Assembly (NCBI GenBank): GCA_950295325.1
Contig: OX485804.1
Span: 39,432,001-39,496,000, forward strand
DNA: 64,000 nucleotides
Reading direction: 5' to 3'
Source: Polytrichum commune
Lineage: Eukaryota; Streptophyta; Polytrichopsida; Polytrichales; Polytrichaceae
Position 1 is the first letter of the stretch. Each line of letters starts with the position of its first letter. Made by a program: the position numbers and the translations under genes. This document shows positions 6,141 through 61,079 of this stretch, in pieces. A model generated the notes under the pieces. The model was not told the origin of the DNA, made no database searches, and was given only the letters and a program-made list of their open reading frames with translations.

Positions 6141-6386
6141 CTAGGAATGTGCGGATTTGACTGATCTGCTGCCTGTGCGGGGCGACGGAGGAGACTGTGG
6201 TTCTTGCACAAAACCCTCGCGCAGAACTGCACTTCCGCTTTCGTGTGTGCACATCAATCGGGCGCGTACTGGCTCCCAGGCGCAGCCACGCCATCGCCAC
6301 ACGCGCTAGGGCTGCGCAGCGAAAGAAATTTCAAGAAACGGTGCACTGAGTCGCACAGGGGAGAGGTTCGAAGGATTCGAGGCGCA
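6125..6386 (+). promoter_or_regulatory. CpG-rich promoter/5' leader of cytochrome b5 gene
   Basis: GC and CpG content rise sharply here compared with the sequence upstream, and the rise continues to the first exon. The reading frame of the protein stays open back to 6204, but no ATG occurs in that frame before 6387, so the upstream part is taken as 5' leader. I saw no convincing TATA box. Confidence 0.5.
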
Positions 6387-9300
6387 ATGGCGACCGAGGG
6401 AAAGAAGATCTACAGCCTGGCTGAGGTCTCAGTCCACAACCACGCCAAGGATTGCTGGCTCATCATCGACGGCAAGGTGAGCTTCGTTCGACACTCTACG
6501 GTGTGGTTGTATTACGCTTTTTTATTTTTTTTAATCATTTTATTCCATCTGCTCTGGGTCTTTCGATTGCCAAGTTCGTGGTTGCCGCGATGGCCGATTG
6601 CTGGAATGGATATGTGTTGGAGGTCTTATTCGGGCGAGCTTTTAATTTTTAGCTTAGGGGATTATTACATAAAGCGCGTTTGCGAGATGTGGAGTGTCCA
6701 TTGGCTCCACGGTGCTTAGTAGTATGCTTGTGATTGTGGCCATGCTATGGAATGGCTCTGCGACGGGCTGTTTAGGAATATGGTTGCCTCTAATCTGCCA
6801 TTATGGAAAATCATTCAACAACGGACAGGTTTGACAGTGGGGGATTTTTTTTCCTTATGTTTTTCCATTGCTCTGGATATTCGATTGCCGAGTTCGTGGT
6901 TTCCCTGTGAACATAGTGAGGCGATGGCCGATTGCTGAGGTGACGACTTTAAAATATATGCGTTGGAGGTTTTATTCGGGCGAGCTTGTGATTATTAGCT
7001 TAGGGGTTATTGCATAGAGCGTGTTTGCGGGCTGTGAAGGCCATTGGCTCCGTGGTTTCCAGTATTATGCTTGTCATTATGGACATGCTATGGAATGGCT
7101 TTGCAAAGTATGTATTGCATTTTTTCCTTTGTTCTTTTATTTCTGTTTTTCCATTGCCGAGTTCGTGGTTTCCTTGTGGACATGGGGAGGCGATGGCCGA
7201 TTGCTGAGGTGATTGCTGAAATGGATTTGTGTTGGAGTTCTTATTTGGGCGAGCGTGTGATTTTTAGCTTAGGGATTATTGCATAAAGCGCGTTTGTCAG
7301 ATGTGGAGTCCATGGGCTCTGTGGTGCTTAGTAGTATGTGTGGGTGATTGTGGATATGCTATGAAATGGCTCTGTGACTGGCTGTCTAGGAAGCATGGTT
7401 GCTTCTAGTCTAGCATTAAGGAGAATCGGTCAACAACAGACAGGTTTGATAGCAGGGAGTTTATTCGTTGATCCCTCGAGTATTTTTCGGAACTTTGTTG
7501 ATCCTTGCAACTATAGACAAAGGTCCTTCTGTGTGGGACTATATACTTGCTTGTACATGTTGGCGAAAGTTGATATATTCTGCTTGCCATTTCCTCATGT
7601 CTGCTTTCTCTTTCATTTAATTTTTTGATGTTCATATGCAATTCTATCATCCTTTTGATGTGCAAGCTACCTTCAGACTTTAGATGTCTCATCCAGATCC
7701 CTCACTATTGGTTTGAGGTTGTAGTTTGATATATTTGTCCAACGAGACCTTGATTTTGTTCTGAATGGACATGTCTCTTTCTTCATGTTCACAGCTTTGC
7801 AGACTTTAAATCTGCAAATTTAAAAATATGCAGTTCCTTTTTCTAACCAAGTTTGTTAGCATTGTTAACTTGTCTCATGTGCAAGTGCCCTTTAGACTAT
7901 AGGTGCCTCATCCGGATCTTTCGCTGTTGACGTTGAGGTTGTAGTTTCATGTAGTTGTCCAATGAGGTGTTGATTTCGCTCTCATCGTGATCACAGCTTT
8001 GCAGGACTTCAAATCCACAAACCTGCAAATATCAAGTTCGTTCCATAAAAGTTTGTTACCATTGTTAAGTAAGGGCTTGCGGAAGATGTTGTGGTCTTTT
8101 TATTCAAAGTGATGATTGTGGGCTCATGTAGTACCTGTACTTTGTTCATTCTCCTGAAGTCTTTTGGACCATACCATCAGTCTCCACATCATATTATTAT
8201 CTTTGGATATAGAATCTTCATGCACGTGCTTCTAGTGAGATAAAGAAACCTTGATATCATGTTTTAAACTTTGTTGACGGTGGATTTAATCGTTCTCATC
8301 GATTTTTCCAGCTTTCCTCCTCCTCCTAGAGTTCAGGATATTATCATCTGAATACCAGTATCTTGTATGGATTCATCACACTGTGCACAAGGCTTCATTT
8401 AGAAGTTATGTTGTGTCCTGATGGAGGGACAACAGGATTTTGATAGACTTTATTCTGTAGAGGTTGCTAAGCTGTACAAGTAGTTGTGTTTTCCTGCACT
8501 AAAAGAGTAAATGGTCAAGCTCTCAAGTTGATGGAAAATGCCTTTGACCTATTTCAGGCATTGGGAAATTTTCCACTAAAGAGAGATTGGCCATTATAAA
8601 GAAGAGTATCATTTCCTTTGTTCAGAAGGTGTTGTGAACTTGGAATATGCATCGACATGTTCTTTATCTCTTTTCTCTCAGTATTCGATGTCTTATCGGT
8701 AACAGGCAGCATATTGTCTGATCATATGACAACGATCTGCAGGTTGCCTTTTTCTGAAAACTTGAGAGTTTTATGATGGCAGGTATACGATGTCACCAAA
8801 TTCCTAGAAGAGCACCCTGGAGGAGACGAGGTTCTTCTCTCAGCAACTGGTATGCTTGTTTCCTTTGTACACATGCCTTTGCTCTGGCCATTGCTTGTCC
8901 TGTTTCTCCCACTTTTCAAGGAGTGGTAGCTTCTCAGAAGCTTTGATGGAGGATTTGTGCTTAGAAGCCTTTATGGGGAATTCATCAATTTTAATTGGAT
9001 TCTTGCTCAGCAAGAAAAGAAAAACATTGAAACTGCCAAAGTATCAGATGAGTGGCTACCTAGTCTTGGAGAATGTAAGAGAGAGCTCACTTCATCCTTA
9101 CAAAATAGCTAATATGTTGCTGGGACTTGAAAATGGAGTGCTCTGACTTGCTGCTGAAGTGTTCTGAGCTTCAAAACTAGGTTTCTTTTAGCTCTGAGAA
9201 GATCAGGAATATCTTGTGCATATATGTTGCTTGATAAACTGAAGCTGCAAGTGTTTATCAGTGCAAATATTTTGTCAGCTCTCTGCCTTTGTGCATGAAA

Positions 9301-52554: not shown

Positions 52555-53460
52555 TTATATGGTAGAATTGCCCTTTGTGGATTCAAGAGTTTTTTTTTTT
52601 TTCCTAATATTTTTTTTTATAATGTCATGCTAACCATTGATCTACTATAAATCTATTGATCCAAAATTTGTGTGAGGTCTTCATATGAGATAATGCCTTG
52701 GGAGGAGGCAATGTGGGAATAAATGGCAACCTTTGAGCAAACCCACACCCTCGGGCCTTATCTACCACATTATTTCCACCATGACCAGACAATCAACATG
52801 GCCAATACTAATTCTCCACCACACTAACACAACCATTTAGTGCAATGACATCGGGACGGGCTGGGTTGGTACTACAAAAGATAGAATACAAAACACAAAC
52901 CTAGATGCATTCATAATATGTTCTTTCGATCTTTGGAATGAATACATAGACCCTCCCAATCATGTTCACTATCAAATGGGGGGTGCTTAACCCCTAAGAC
53001 TCAACCTCTCCAAGCACAAAGTCGCATAGTCATACTTCACTTTTAGCTAATCATGTCAAAAGCAATCCTATCTATGATCAACTTACTCTTTAAGTGCACG
53101 CCTTAGATACATTAATCACTTTCTTGTTACTTACGATTTAAGTTCAAATGCGAATATTGGGTGCCCTTAGAGGCAAATGCATATGTTGTGGTCTGATCAT
53201 CAATGTCTAATATGAGTATAATTTTGATCTTCTCCTCGACATGATACAATGCATATACTAAAGTTCTAAACACACACATTTACATAAAAGTATGAGTTTA
53301 TAAATTTGATGACACCCGTATAAATTGTGTATATGGCCGTATATTCAAGCCCAAGTCCCTTAAGGAATAATAAAGTACAAAGACGTAGTTGAATCTCTAC
53401 CATACACGTGTCATTACGATGCTTGTTCTTTGGTTACTCACCGAACCCCATATCAATCAA
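52555..53460. other. Intergenic repeats ahead of the GC-rich gene start
   Basis: Fragments of family R near 52920-52985 and 53360-53460 and the 53.19-53.37-kb repeat fill much of this stretch. No gene. Confidence 0.45.
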
Positions 53461-53461
53461 A

Positions 53462-54982
53462 ATATAAGAATCCGCATACCTTAGTGCCCAGCCCCTCCCG
53501 TATCGCGGATTGGATCCGTACATATACGGAGAAGGGTATGATACGGAATATACGCCTCGATACAAATACGTAGCATGAGGAGGCGTATCGGAGGGCGGAG
53601 GGCGGAGGGCGGAGGGCGTGTCGATATTTCATCCACGGAGACGGATGAGGATCATCATGGGAATACTGTTTGTCGGGCAGCGCGGGCAGGCTCAACTGAA
53701 ACTCCAGTGGCGAGGGAGGGCAGGGTGCCTCGTGGAGGGAGGGGAGGAGCATAGGGGGTGTGCTGGCGGAGAGGGAGTGAAGCCAGGCAGCTCTTCGGCC
53801 GTCTTCATCACAAACTGGGACTCAATGTATGCATGCCCCACCCTCGAGCCCTGTCTGCCTTCCTTTCCTTTCTCCTTTCATTCTCTCTTCTCTCTCTCTC
53901 TCGCGCGCGCTCTGTCTGTCTGTCTTGTCTGTCTGTGTGCCACGCACTGCGACCTCCCTCCCCTTCACACAAAGTGTCCTCTGCAATGTCTCTGCTCGTT
54001 GACGGCTGGAGAGCTGCTCTTTTGAGCTCCCGCTTTTGCATGAAAAGCTAGAGGGGTGAGGAGGAACAAGAGAGAAGAGAGGATGTTGATGAGGAGGGAG
54101 GAGAAAAGGGACAGGGCTCGGAGGGCGGAAGCAGCACAAGGGGGGAGGAGGATGGGGGAAGTGATGATGATGATGATGATGAGAGATGCGAGCAGTGGTG
54201 GCAGCGGGGGAGGGAACAAAGAAGTCGCAGGGGAAGCAGATGGAGATATAGGAGCAGGATGGATCGGCGAGGCTTGAATCTATCCCTCTCTCCCCCCCTT
54301 TCTCTCTCTATCTCTCGGGTTGGACTTCCCTCTTGCTCCTCCTCATACCAGTGTTTCTCTAGTGTTTTTGTTTGTTTTGTTTTGTTTTTTTTTTTGAAAA
54401 ATTGAATTTTGTGTCTACCACCGAGAGAGTATGCGGGGTGTGTCCTCTGTTGTGTTCTCCTCTTCTCCGGCGAGGTGTCGTGAAATTCGTGAAATGTGTG
54501 ATTGCAGTAGCAGGAGTGGAGGTTTGAGGTGCTAGTTTATTGATTGATTCCTTTCTTCCCTTGGTGTAGGAGTGAGTTTTCTCTTTTGTGTCTGTGTATT
54601 TAAGCGGTTCTTCAACGCTCCACAGGGGGTGGGGGGTAGGGTTGGAGCACGTAACTAAGGAATTTGGAAGTTGTCGTGCATTTTGGTGCATAGATCAAAA
54701 TTGGTGATATATCCAGGAGTTTTGTTAAGTCGAGTGCGCCCTGTGTCTGTGTTTTTGATGCCTTTGGCAACCTATTTTTGAAGTGAATGAAAATTTTCCA
54801 ATATCGTGCCATGGATGATAAGTTCGGTGGAGGGGAGGCATGGACCTAATTGTTGCATTCGGATTCTGCACTCCTCTTTGAATGCGCAGAAAGTGTAAAT
54901 ATTGCTACAACAGAGCCCACGGCTGCAGTAAGTAACACGAAGTAGGAGAAGGTTTAGCTGGTGGAGCTTCAGCTTCACCGGA
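53462..54982 (+). promoter_or_regulatory. GC-rich promoter/5' region of the MINIYO-like gene
   Basis: Base composition changes abruptly near 53.46 kb from AT-rich repeats to CpG-containing sequence. The region has a heptamer repeat (GGAGGGC)4 at about 53590-53617, a CT/CTGT-rich stretch at 53870-53940, a (GAT)n run at 54157-54183 and T-rich tracts. The longest open frame (135 aa at 53618-54025) is low in complexity and not credited. The frame of the downstream protein has an in-frame stop (TAA) close upstream of its ATG, so this part is leader or holds an undetected 5' intron. Confidence 0.5.
53589..53617. repeat. Heptamer tandem repeat (GGAGGGC)x4
   Basis: Four perfect units inside the GC-rich region upstream of the MINIYO-like gene. 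Confidence 0.9.
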
Positions 54983-57900
54983 ATGGGAAGGGAGGATATG
55001 ACAGTTGCCACCAATCGAGAGGTTCTACTTTCAAATCGGCAATTGCATGATAAGATAGGAAGCATGGAAACGTTGTGGATGACTCGATTGGAGTCAGTGA
55101 AGTCCTACGTCTTCGATTTGGAAGGTAATGTTATAGCGCGGGATGTTGCGAAACGAGTGCCTGGAAGTCACTCTTTATCAGAAGCAGCAAAACTCATCAG
55201 CAGTACGGTAAGCTTCAGTTCCCTTTTAATTCTGAAACTTAGATTTGCTCTTTCTTTCTGTCGTAAGGTTCTAATTGAATGGAGATATTGTATTTGCAGC
55301 TCCAGTTCCTTTCAATTTCGAAACTTATTTTTGCTGATTCTTCTGTCTTAAGTTTGCAATTGAATGGAGGTATAGAAAAAAGCTCGTCCTTAACGGGGAT
55401 TAGGAATTTTTCTTACTCCTTCAGGATTCAACTCAAAAGGAAGCGGACTTGTTGCTTATAGCATCCGTGCTAAGTAAAGCGACATGTGAACTGCAAGCTC
55501 AGGGGCTGTCGTCGACTGATGCAACCAGCATAATATCTGAGGAAGCAAATGCGGATTGGCAAGCAGTGTGGGCGTATGCTCTTGGCTCAGAGCTAGAACT
55601 AAGCTCACTCCTCAGGTCAGACAAAAACTTTAGCAAGTGTCCACGATTGGCTCTCTCTGTGGTGCAAAGTATTGCAACATGCTTTTTTTTTGTAGATTTG
55701 AAATGTGTCGCTTACTTAGTAAGCGATTGTTTGTTTGTTATGCTTCTGTTGTGTGCAGGGCGGCCATGGAAGATTCCAATCCCGCTGTACTAATAGCCTG
55801 CGCAAAAGCATTGCATGCAATTCTGAGCTGCTCTCCCAATGAGAATGTATTCGATCTTCAAGAGGTATTCATTACTCTTTGCGTCCTCAACAAGTTCCAG
55901 GTGTTCCCGTGAGGTCTCCTCTAGCATTTGTTCCCTCTAGCATTTGTTCCCTCTAGCATTTGTTCCCTTCTAGTTAGATTCTGTTAACCTGGATTGATCC
56001 TGCATTCAAGAGGCTGTACAACCCGCGTCAAACTTGTTATCCAGATCTTCCAAGTCTCTTTAGTAGGAACATCCTTCCTGATATACTGAATGTAATAGTA
56101 GTAGCCGGAGGTTCAGAAACAAGTGCTTGTGATTCGTCATACAGCAGTCTTTGAATTGGTCAAATCGTTGCTCACGCAATCCTTGGTGTCGAAGTTGATA
56201 ATGACCCCCGATAACCTGGCCGTTTTTTTTGGTTGTATCGAAATTTATCCTGAACCCTTATGCTCTTGTCTCAATTTTTCCTTTTTCAACCAGGTAAAGC
56301 TGAATACTCTCCCAGGGCAACTTCCTTTTAACCTCAGATTAGAGATGGTGCTTCTATCTTTGAATCTTGTTCCTTATCTTATTTATGCCCTTAATAAAAA
56401 ATTAAAATATCAATTTTTTAAAAGGCGGCATTGTTACACATGCTAGATAACAATCTGCTCGAGTCTTTTCCTGAGAGATTTAGCAGAAACTTAAGACTAG
56501 GACCCACACAAGTCAGTGGTGATCTCATGGAAGGGGGCTTCTTGCATGCAGATTGTTGTAGATGGTCTCTTGTCATATGATTCCAACCATTCGATTATTG
56601 CAGCATGAGTCAATGATACAATCCGTTTCATGATCATTCCTTGCCCTAGGGCATAGCACTTAGAGCATAACTTTGACCTATCCATACGTTCCTTTTGCAA
56701 CTCTCCCTTCTGCTTTTTCCCTTTTTTTTTCAACTGAATGTGTAACTATTTAGTTTCTAAAATGGTCATCAATACTAGATATCTTATTGCAGCCTGGTTA
56801 AACCGTCACACGATACCTATGAGGATGTTAGGCTAGTGCTCAGCTGTAACTTGTACGGAGGTGTCTATTATACAGGGTATATGGCCTGGCAACAAGTCAA
56901 CATTTACAGCACCAGTTTTTCGAAGGCATACAAAACAGGAAGATGGTTGGATAGGAGGTGGTCGATGGAAGTATTCTGTGAATGCAAGCGAGCTACACCC
57001 TATCACTCAAACATTGAATGCTTCGAGTGATAATGATGACGACAAAGATTTACCCGGAGGTGAGGCAACTGTCACAAGCAAAGATATTGCTGCTGGTCTT
57101 ATCCGTATGGGTCTTCTCACCAGGATCCAGCACATTCTTGAGGTAATGTGTTTTGGTTTCATCACACACATGCATACATATGTATTTCTCTATGCATTTT
57201 GTTAACTACAGAGCCTATTGGAGAATTGCTAGGTAGAAATACCTGGCGTAGGTTTTCTTCTTTTGAAGAAGAGGGAAGTTGTCGGATGTGCTTCTCTTGT
57301 GTCAAAGTAAACCTCTATCTGCATATGTTATTTGTTTTTGGAAATTGGGATTGACAAGATCTTTCCTGCATACAGGTGGAGCAGTTAAAGGCAGTTGACG
57401 AACATTTGTTGAGTGTGGTGATAGCACTTTCTCGTCATTCTCCAGCTGCTGCTAAAGCCGTTATGAGATGCCCAAGACTGATGGATACAATCATACAACG
57501 TTTCCTTCTCACAGATGAAGATTTGAATCTCGGACTTCGTCTTTCTCATAACAAGGCTATTCAACTTCTCAAAGTATGGTTCTGAATTTTTTTTCAAGCT
57601 TTCTTCAAGCTCCTGACAACTGGGTCTGACTGATAGAGCTCAGTTTAATAAATGTGCATGGGGGATGGATTGGTCAAATTTAATGCAGACTGCACAGACA
57701 ATTACTATGCCTTAAGTAGGTTTTGCAGTAATCTACTTTTACTCGACTTGCTCACAGCCCAATGTTTATCATTAATTGCAGATTTTATCTCAAGCAAGTA
57801 CAGCCAACTGCATACGCTTTGCAGAAACAGGAGCACTGCAAGTGGCACAGTGTGAATTATATCAACAAGGTTACCTGCTCCCTACGGATCCAAGACTTGG

Positions 57901-60900
57901 CGAGAATTCCTTCAAAGGGATCTGTGTGACTGTTGTAGAATGTCTCCGGTTGTGGCGTGTCTGTATAAACCATCAGATTGGAATTGCATTATTTCCAGAC
58001 ATTTATCCTGCCCTGTGCTCCTGGCTTACCCCACTTTCGCTCAAAGCAATTTCCTCGGAGGATGCTGATGACATCCTAACTTTGGCACAAGAGTCCTACA
58101 GTTTGCTGGAAAGACTTGCTTGGACTCTCCCACTTCTGCACACTGAAGGCTCTGTTCATCTAAATTGGGCATGGAATGTTGCTGTTCCATTGGTTGAGAC
58201 AGCATTTGGGTGGTTGGGTAAAGATCGTATTGCTGGTATCTGCAAAATAATTGATCTATCAACCAACGAATCTCAGCAACATGATCATGGTCTTCGCAAG
58301 AAATTGATGGGGACTATGGCTCAAGTTTTCCATTTCCTTGCTACAGTGTGCGAGATGTTTACTGACTCAGGGGCAGAGGATGGTGGCACGAATGGTTCTC
58401 AAACTATCACTTTGCCACCATTTGTTTGTCGGCTTGCAGTATTGCTCATGACAAATGATTTGCTAAAATCGACAAAAGGGAAGAAATCAATGTTAAGTAT
58501 CTTAAGCTCTCTTCGAAGCATTGTTGATGATGAGGAGACGGCAATGGTTGCCTCGAGTTGTATTCATGGTCTTGTTCGTATGGTCAGTGTGGTTGACCAG
58601 TTAAGTTCAAGATTGGATGAGGAAAGTGAACCCACCCACCTCCCTGCACAAGAGATTGAAGCACACAAAATCTTTGCAAATGGCCTAGTTGTTGCGATTG
58701 ACAGGGAATTGCGGGAGCTTTTGTATGTTGTGGGAGAGGAGATGATCTCAAAGCATAATCTCGCACAGTCTTTTGAAGAAGACGGAAGAGGGGGGCCTGC
58801 CCCTGGTTTAGGAGTTGGCTGGGGTCGAATCGGTGGTGGCATGTTCTCGAAGAATGTCCTACATGCAAAGGGAGTTGCCAGGCTTGTTACAGAGTTGCTT
58901 GAAACATTGCCTGCTAAACACGAGGCTGAATATGAAGAGAAGTCCTTGGCAGCGACCTCTGACTTATTGTGGAGGATAAGCTGTGGCTTGTCAGTTGCAG
59001 CCATTGCTGGACCTGGAGATAGTGAAATTATACATCGAATCTGCTCAAATTTGTTACTGCACCCAGATACCTTGGCACATTTGCTCCAAAGATTGGATGC
59101 CACTATGATAATTGATACTTTATCTGGTGCTCCCCTGGCAGCTGAAAGGAGTCCTGATACATCACCTAAAGCTCCAAACTTCATGTATGAAAATATGTCC
59201 AAAGTTTTGTTGGAGCATTACAGAAAGGTGTGGCTGTGTGGAAAGCCTTTGAAATCCTCCCACAGTAGACGGAGCTCCAAGAAGAATGTGAAGGTGAAGA
59301 CGAGCCTCATCTCCACAAAGTTATCAACCCTAAGTGAAGAAAGTGCCAGGTTAGCAGAGGAGAGAATTGGAGTTGAGGGCCTTGCGAATGAATTGGTAGC
59401 TGAATGGGCCAAACAAAGGCTTCCTTTGCCATCACATTGGATCTACAGCCCCTTGGCCACCAATTTAACCGGACTTGCGGAGAGTGCACCTGAGTGTAAA
59501 ATATTGGCAGATGGTAAGTTTGCCATCTGTCATGGACGAGAGACAGAAATGGAAGACTCTATCAAGCATGGCCTTGTATGGTTACTCGGCTTGGAAGTAT
59601 TGAGTCAGTCAACGATGGACAATAAAACCAGTCCACTGGCCGCAATCCCCATAACAAGAAAAGTGCATGCATTGTCAAGCCTGTTCATTCTTGGGGGTGA
59701 TGTGTTTCTCGATGAGAACCTCAAGGACTGTATATTATGTTTACAGAAGCTGTTTGGAAAGCTTCTTGATTCCAAGTCAGTGGCATATCGGGGACATCAT
59801 AGTGATAACTTTTCTCCCCTTGACACGCAAGGCAGAAATAATATAATAGATTTTGAAGGGGAAATTGATGGCAATTACTCTACTTTCACTGCAACATTAG
59901 CCAAGCGACTTTCCACTGCATCATCAGTTGATCTATGTTTAAGTTGTCAAGTGGCTCTTTATCTCAGGCAGGATGTGGCTGCCTCCATACGGTTGAGTGT
60001 TTGGCGAACTCTAAATGACACCCAATCCTTAAGCCTGTTACCTCCCCGAGCTGAATGTTGTGGAGACCCTGATGCATATCTCTTCCCATATGAGGTAATT
60101 TCTTTTTCCTACATCTAAGGTGTTCAAATATAGGAACTGGGCGACATTCGCCTGAACACTTATTTCCAGCTCTCATGACAGTAATACCTGAAGGTGATTT
60201 GGCACAAGTTCTTGTGCACATTGTGCATGCATCATTTCTATTAAGTTTCATAACGAGTCTTCTGTAAACAAGAACTTTGCATATCATAAATTTGTTGGAG
60301 TCCTTCATGTTCTTGATATCTTACTTGTGAGTCGATTTCTATCAGTTTTTCTGATTGATATCCTGCATGGTATCCTACTTGTGAGCATTTAGGTGCTGTA
60401 TGTGCCCCTTTTCCAATACTGGAGAAGTTGCTGATGTGGTCACTTCTCAATTAGAAGAGTATGATAGTAGAGGGCTATTATGGTTTTTCCTCTTAATCAA
60501 TTTCAGCTTATAGTTGTGTTCATCTTGGAAGTCTTCTTAACTTTTGGTTGGTGTACAGCAAAATGAAGAAGTTATTGCAGCATATGCATCTGCATGGGAG
60601 TCTGGGGCTATCGATGCTGCAGTTGCCAATGGATCTATGGCATATGAGCTTTCTTTGCATCATATTGCAGGGTTTTTATTTGGAAAAGATTCAGTAACGG
60701 AGGATTGTGTGCAAAGTAAGGTTGCTGTAAGTATTGTAGAGAGCTCCATGCGCAAACCAGAGCAGGTGCGTATGCGCCCCCCCCCCCCCCCCCCCCCAAA
60801 TACTGGTAGGGATTGCATTGCAACTTCAGCAAAGTGAAAATGTGCATCCATCATGTACAAACTGTTATTGTTGCAACCGAGTAATTGTATGTATGTATGT

Positions 60901-61079
60901 ATATTCCACAGGAAATGCTGCTGAAGTTAGTCACATACCGGATGATGGCTGGAGAACCTGACATCAACGAGTTGAACAGACGGCTTGGCTTCTTCCAGGA
61001 AGTGTGCAAGGGACACACATCCTTAATAACTGAAGTGAAACGTTTGCAAGTTCACTTACTTGGAAGTACACATTCCTGA
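54983..61079 (+). CDS. RPAP1/MINIYO-like RNA polymerase II-associated protein, 8 exons
   Basis: Exons: 54983-55207, 55425-55615, 55759-55864, 56876-57142, 57376-57573, 57782-60094, 60559-60765, 60912-61079; all introns GT-AG, frame kept, 1224 aa. Family members bind Pol II, support transcription elongation and Pol II assembly/import, and in Arabidopsis (IYO) drive cells into differentiation. Matches recalled from the family run in order: the RPAP1_C-type start (MTRLESVKSYVFDLEGNVI, residues about 32-51), then ADWQAVWAYALG and DSNPAVLIACAKALHAILSC (exons 2-3), FTAPVFRR..GGRWKYS and KDIAAGLIRMGLLTRI (exon 4), ILSQASTANCIRFAETGALQ opening the 2.3-kb exon 6, and NEEVIAAYASAWESGAIDAA with GSMAYELSLHHIAGFLFG (exon 7). 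The helical body suggests ARM/HEAT-like repeats. Full-length plant IYO is about 1450 aa; the N-terminal RPAP1_N part is absent. The acceptor of exon 4 is the least certain junction. Confidence 0.9.
55919..55969 (+). repeat. 17-bp tandem repeat x3 in intron 3
   Basis: Three perfect copies of CTCTAGCATTTGTTCCC in the intron between exons 3 and 4 of the MINIYO-like gene. Confidence 0.9.
60777..60797 (+). repeat. 21-nt poly-C tract next to a splice donor
   Basis: An uninterrupted C run begins 12 nt after the end of exon 7, just inside the last intron (CAG/gtgcgtatgcg then C). The opposite strand is poly-G and could form a G-quadruplex. The true length may differ from the assembly, since such tracts are error-prone. 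Confidence 0.8.

Follow-up and report, generated by a model that had tools for sequence, protein, structure and literature searches.

MINIYO/RPAP1, a factor in RNA polymerase II assembly and cell differentiation, is described in the literature consulted as a single multi-domain protein in both plants and animals, with the N-terminal part only in yeast. A locus of Polytrichum commune therefore poses a question: how is one to account for a gene of this family that appears complete in every respect except that it begins only around the RPAP1_C domain? It lies in a 64,000-nucleotide stretch, analysed here as a whole and termed the window (C2:39432001-39496000), of a 408 Mb assembly whose 64 contigs comprise seven large ones (42-78 Mb) followed by small ones. 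A sequence-only reading of the window had described an RPAP1/MINIYO homologue that seemed to lack its N-terminal third and had offered several explanations: a second, truncated paralogue, a gene split into two halves or overlooked 5' exons; an assembly error was named as a possible refutation. The underlying gene model withstood an independent rebuilding from the sequence: eight exons at 54983-61079 on the plus strand (as for all features of this gene given below), in phase up to the stop, with a coding sequence of 3675 nt that contains no internal stop and specifies 1224 amino acids. All seven introns are GT-AG, leaving the 14 splice dinucleotides intact.

What is missing is best judged against the rest of the genome. 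A whole-genome search with the Pfam profile of RPAP1_N returned a single match, on the minus strand at C6:38672540-38672674 (64.9 bits), and none outside C6 even at E<=10. This match belongs to a gene that we modelled by hand (C6:38674130-38665860; 11 exons, 1603 aa; introns GT-AG in nine cases and GC-AG in one, the intron after exon 3), the product of which scores 58.7, 49.0 and 70.4 bits against the RPAP1_N, RPAP1_C and TPR_RPAP1 profiles, respectively. With this domain complement, the C6 gene is the canonical full-length MINIYO. Its protein also carries LRKRGLKK right at the end of RPAP1_N, i.e. at the position of the nuclear signal NLSA, and KKSKRMR further on. The RPAP1_C profile, run across the whole genome, recovers the C6 gene and two weak sub-threshold matches, including a fragment on C4 considered below. 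Thus, profile searches for both domains, which had been suggested as a check, yielded a full-length paralogue and no separate N-terminal gene, in favour of the option that the window holds a second, N-truncated copy. A lineage-specific arrangement with the N- and C-terminal halves of MINIYO encoded separately, to which a gene for the C-terminal part alone would conform, is contradicted by the fact that the only RPAP1_N-bearing gene also possesses a complete C-terminal body (an open exon of 843 codons plus every exon that follows it); we consider it close to impossible.

Measured against the full-length paralogue, homology stops upstream near C6 residue 336, which amounts to a loss of about 335 of 1603 residues (21%): the N-terminal loss is real but smaller than the third originally estimated. 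A Pfam profile search found no match to RPAP1_N (PF08621) in the window protein, and in the alignment both the NLSA region between RPAP1_N and RPAP1_C and any counterpart of the Arabidopsis GPN1-binding segment (aa 1-209) are absent. A simple pattern search detected no KKxK, bipartite or basic-cluster nuclear signal; the protein does contain the basic stretch KPLKSSHSRRSSKKNVKVK. There is also a second deletion, of about 25 residues inside RPAP1_C (C6 aa 383-407), so that the earlier description of a model starting at this domain holds only in part: what stands at the start is a degenerate remnant of RPAP1_C (PF08620; aa 64-94, 55172..55481, spanning the first intron) that covers profile positions 38-68 of 69 and scores 14.5 bits (E 0.035), below the Pfam cut-off of 27. 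The retained portion consists of a helical ARM/TPR body, an RGG motif and a C-terminal TPR_RPAP1 domain (PF25766; aa 1014-1145, encoded by exons 6-7 at 59834..60693; 43.1 bits, cut-off 27). The RGG motif (aa 665-667, 58787..58795) is embedded in the conserved block DGRGGPAPGLGVGWG, the same block as at aa 1027-1029 of the C6 protein; the shared segment GRGGPAPGLGVGWG corresponds to aa 664-677, and these surroundings are among the best-kept blocks in the alignment of the two proteins. Neither the window protein nor the first 686 residues of the C6 protein has a sequence match among solved structures, and the predicted structure of exon 6 alone is helical, with a mean pLDDT of 39 that is too low to use. 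On its reading frame and domains, the window harbours an intact RPAP1/MINIYO homologue devoid of RPAP1_N.

The affinity of the two genes is apparent both from their proteins, in which 534 of 1180 aligned residues are identical (45%), and from their exons. Exon 1 (54983..55207, aa 1-75) combines the 3' end of C6 exon 3 with C6 exon 4, lacking both the intervening intron and the approximately 25 residues of RPAP1_C. The remaining exons follow those of C6 one by one: exon 2 (55425..55615; flanked by GT-AG, with junctions as in C6 exon 5 in position and phase), exon 3 (55759..55864; C6 exon 6), exon 4 (56876..57142; C6 exon 7, 55% identity), exon 5 (57376..57573; C6 exon 8, the most conserved at 70% identity), exon 6 (57782..60094; 771 open codons, C6 exon 9), exon 7 (60559..60765; C6 exon 10) and exon 8 with the stop codon (60912..61079; C6 exon 11, 30% identity). 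Each of the seven window introns coincides in alignment column and phase with one of C6 introns 4-10, one of them being off by a single column. Since the introns are shared in position and phase, the duplication occurred at the DNA level and not via RNA, and a retrocopy origin was rejected on the same ground. Absent from the window copy, whether lost or never acquired, are exons 1-2, most of exon 3 and part of RPAP1_C. It is a homologous paralogue by its body and gene structure, yet by its domain content no canonical full member of the RPAP1/MINIYO family. That the window gene is a diverged second, N-truncated MINIYO paralogue can be held with high confidence on these alignments. As to individual introns, C6 intron 3 (38672199-38671981), at whose site the window paralogue lost the intron and about 25 residues, is the GC-AG one and is located inside the RPAP1_C coding region, and intron 7 of the window gene contains a run of about 20 C at 60778-60797.

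The surroundings of the two loci differ in their identified genes, and a comparison of local synteny (194 kb around the C2 locus vs 140 kb around the C6 locus) gave, besides MINIYO, short and mostly repeat-like matches among those listed. As the identified neighbours differ, the duplication may have been either whole-genome or dispersed. A few other features were observed near these loci. Next to the C6 MINIYO gene, two near-identical HMG-CoA reductase exons (L029:7168-7596 and L023:4344-4802) are positioned about 7 kb apart as a tandem duplication. In the window, an open stretch at 6165-6719 (plus strand) ends in sequence resembling an initial cytochrome b5 exon (MATEGKKIYSLAEVSVHNHAKDCWLIIDGKV), its score of 19.2 bits falling slightly short of the Pfam cut-off, and 45 kb upstream of the window there is a weak match to XS/zf-XS, a plant-specific domain pair and as such in keeping with a plant genome, with both domains below their Pfam cut-offs.

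The region immediately 5' of the gene agrees with the initial description. An in-frame TAA (54929-54931) precedes the ATG by 17 codons, and a GC-rich island with purine/pyrimidine tracts at 53600..54200 (GC 56-59% vs 29-43% in the preceding 3.6 kb) is likely to be a promoter or 5' UTR. When C6 exons 1-3 were compared with this GC-rich region, no homology was found beyond one low-complexity match (E 1.7), and at the DNA level the 5' regions of the two genes have in common only a repeat on opposite strands. RPAP1_N-like sequence is equally absent: none was found in the window and 125 kb upstream (phmmer --max; tblastn), in any frame of the surrounding 194 kb (phmmer at full sensitivity) or on the other strand, and tblastn with the first 440 residues of the C6 protein retrieves window exon 1 and no upstream RPAP1_N. 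As a positive control, the whole-genome search recovered exons of the window gene that encode 35-90 residues and show 40-55% identity.

These results bear directly on the proposal that the gene is full-length and that 5' exons encoding RPAP1_N were missed. In its favour, the codon score of an open, GA-rich stretch at 54055-54327 resembles that of coding sequence, with a weak partial alignment to C6 aa 12-50 (E 1.7), and a usable-looking acceptor ends at 54972, 3' of the in-frame stop; it is weak, though not weaker than genuine acceptors here can be. However, in the C6 gene RPAP1_N shares an exon with the start of RPAP1_C, and hence it would be expected close to window exon 1, whereas there is none in the 125 kb upstream or anywhere off C6; moreover, a comparable RPAP1_N exon should have shown up in the kind of search that detected exons as short and divergent as those of the control. 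The GA-rich stretch was considered as a lost exon 1 and rejected; given its low complexity and the lack of an ATG ahead of the aligned segment, we regard it as 5' UTR. Missed exons with RPAP1_N are therefore very unlikely. Possibly, a short 5' coding exon non-homologous to MINIYO and spliced to 54973 could add some residues to the protein.

An assembly error that removed or displaced the 5' part had been suspected at about 53.5 kb, and a copy of a short dispersed repeat (53300..53475; about 40 matches genome-wide at 75-91% identity) is indeed situated near that point, directly upstream of the unique promoter-like region: repeat matches cover the first 179 bases of 53300-54982, and the remainder matches itself alone in the genome. 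Nevertheless, the window contains no undetermined bases (N), and a displaced RPAP1_N would be seen among the 64 contigs and is not, with the caveat of gap stretches elsewhere in the assembly. A single misjoin also leaves unexplained that the loss falls inside the equivalent of C6 exon 3 and is accompanied by a second deletion in RPAP1_C. We thus regard an assembly error as highly improbable, even more so than missed exons.

If the truncation is genuine, the next issue is whether the copy has been maintained. In a pairwise comparison of the window and C6 genes by NG86, dN is 0.51 and dS about 2.9 (near saturation), giving dN/dS of about 0.17, a two-sequence value in which constraint is not assignable to the window lineage alone; fourfold sites are 39% identical vs 28% by chance. 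A simulation in which the homologous C6 frame drifts to half the divergence without selection predicts about 42 stops where the window gene has none, and the gene is therefore inferred to have been constrained for most of its history, its current function being beyond the reach of two sequences. On this evidence it is not an old pseudogene. Decayed copies do exist in this genome: a fragment of C6 MINIYO (aa 310-580; 51-74% identical, with stops) at C4:58050338-58051049 on the minus strand, which runs without an intron across the exon 4/5, 5/6 and 6/7 junctions and by this token is a processed pseudogene, and two pieces (aa 1378-1415 and 1539-1603; 74% identical to C6) of a decayed copy at C7:3927311-3928272 on the plus strand. 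They illustrate what unconstrained MINIYO copies look like here, and, as both resemble C6 more closely than the window gene does, the latter is probably the older duplicate. These fragments, together with the poorly conserved last exon (30%) and the degraded RPAP1_C, could be taken to mean that the window copy was functional until recently and is now decaying; against such a recent pseudogene stand a frame of 1224 codons with neither stop nor frameshift and intact dinucleotides at all 14 splice borders despite near-saturated synonymous divergence, making it an unlikely account. Taken together, the identity of the window gene as an old N-truncated paralogue and its intactness are well supported by these comparisons, if somewhat less firmly than the identity by itself.

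The functions mapped in Arabidopsis allow a prediction of what such a protein would lack. In IYO, GPN1 binding resides in aa 1-209, RPAP1_N occupies residues 209-254, and import depends mainly on NLSA (aa 254-259), a signal predicted in homologues from all embryophytes; C-terminal fragments locate mainly to the cytoplasm, and the RGG motif is required for pro-differentiation activity (PMC6748027). By analogy, the part lost from the window protein would comprise the GPN1-binding segment, RPAP1_N and the principal import signal. Lacking both GPN1 binding and NLSA, the protein should be mainly cytoplasmic, and the most likely reading is that of a body-only MINIYO that resides predominantly in the cytoplasm and modulates polymerase assembly, although the direction of the mechanism is put forward only tentatively. 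Under this model, the protein would stay mainly in the cytoplasm, where its body would bind the same polymerase subunits or RPAP partners as MINIYO; it would be unable to recruit GPN1 or to carry partners into the nucleus by itself, and polymerase assembly or import would be tuned either through competition with full-length MINIYO or through scaffolding alongside it. An alternative is a working paralogue specialised not as a Pol II assembly modulator but for Pol IV/V or another client. It draws on the reported participation of Arabidopsis MINIYO in the assembly of Pol II, IV and V (according to the title of Li et al. 2018, as cited in PMC8136413), is weakened by the missing GPN1-binding part, and appears rather improbable.

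Should the gene have been long maintained, it would show that the body of MINIYO does work independently of GPN1 binding and NLSA-driven import. A bolder extension, for which we see just a slim chance, is that a long-kept body-only MINIYO acts as a cytoplasmic counterweight to the full-length protein, the separation of modules being an evolved regulatory device; it might, e.g., hold polymerase or RPAP partners and thereby delay their import and the onset of differentiation. If long maintained, the window gene would also form with the C6 gene an existing pair with which the polymerase-assembly part of MINIYO could be told from its differentiation part. A search of the accessible literature on MINIYO in Physcomitrium and on RPAP1 paralogues in land plants found no paper.

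Known systems offer several points of comparison. With MINIYO of Arabidopsis (IYO, AT4G38440) and the C6 gene it shares the helical body, the RGG motif and TPR_RPAP1, and with the C6 gene specifically the intron positions and phases and 45% identity; unlike both, it has no RPAP1_N, NLSA or N-terminal GPN1-binding segment, and its RPAP1_C is shortened and below the cut-off. Yeast Rba50 (439 aa), which is essentially the N-terminal part of RPAP1 alone, is likewise a naturally shortened member of the family, but represents the reverse truncation: it has the RPAP1_N/RPAP1_C part without the body, of which the window protein is the complement (PMC6748027). A further parallel is IYO500REV (aa 500-1465), again a body without the N-terminal part, whose GFP fusion is mainly cytoplasmic (PMC6748027); it differs in being an artificial construct and in starting about 110-180 residues further downstream than the window protein.
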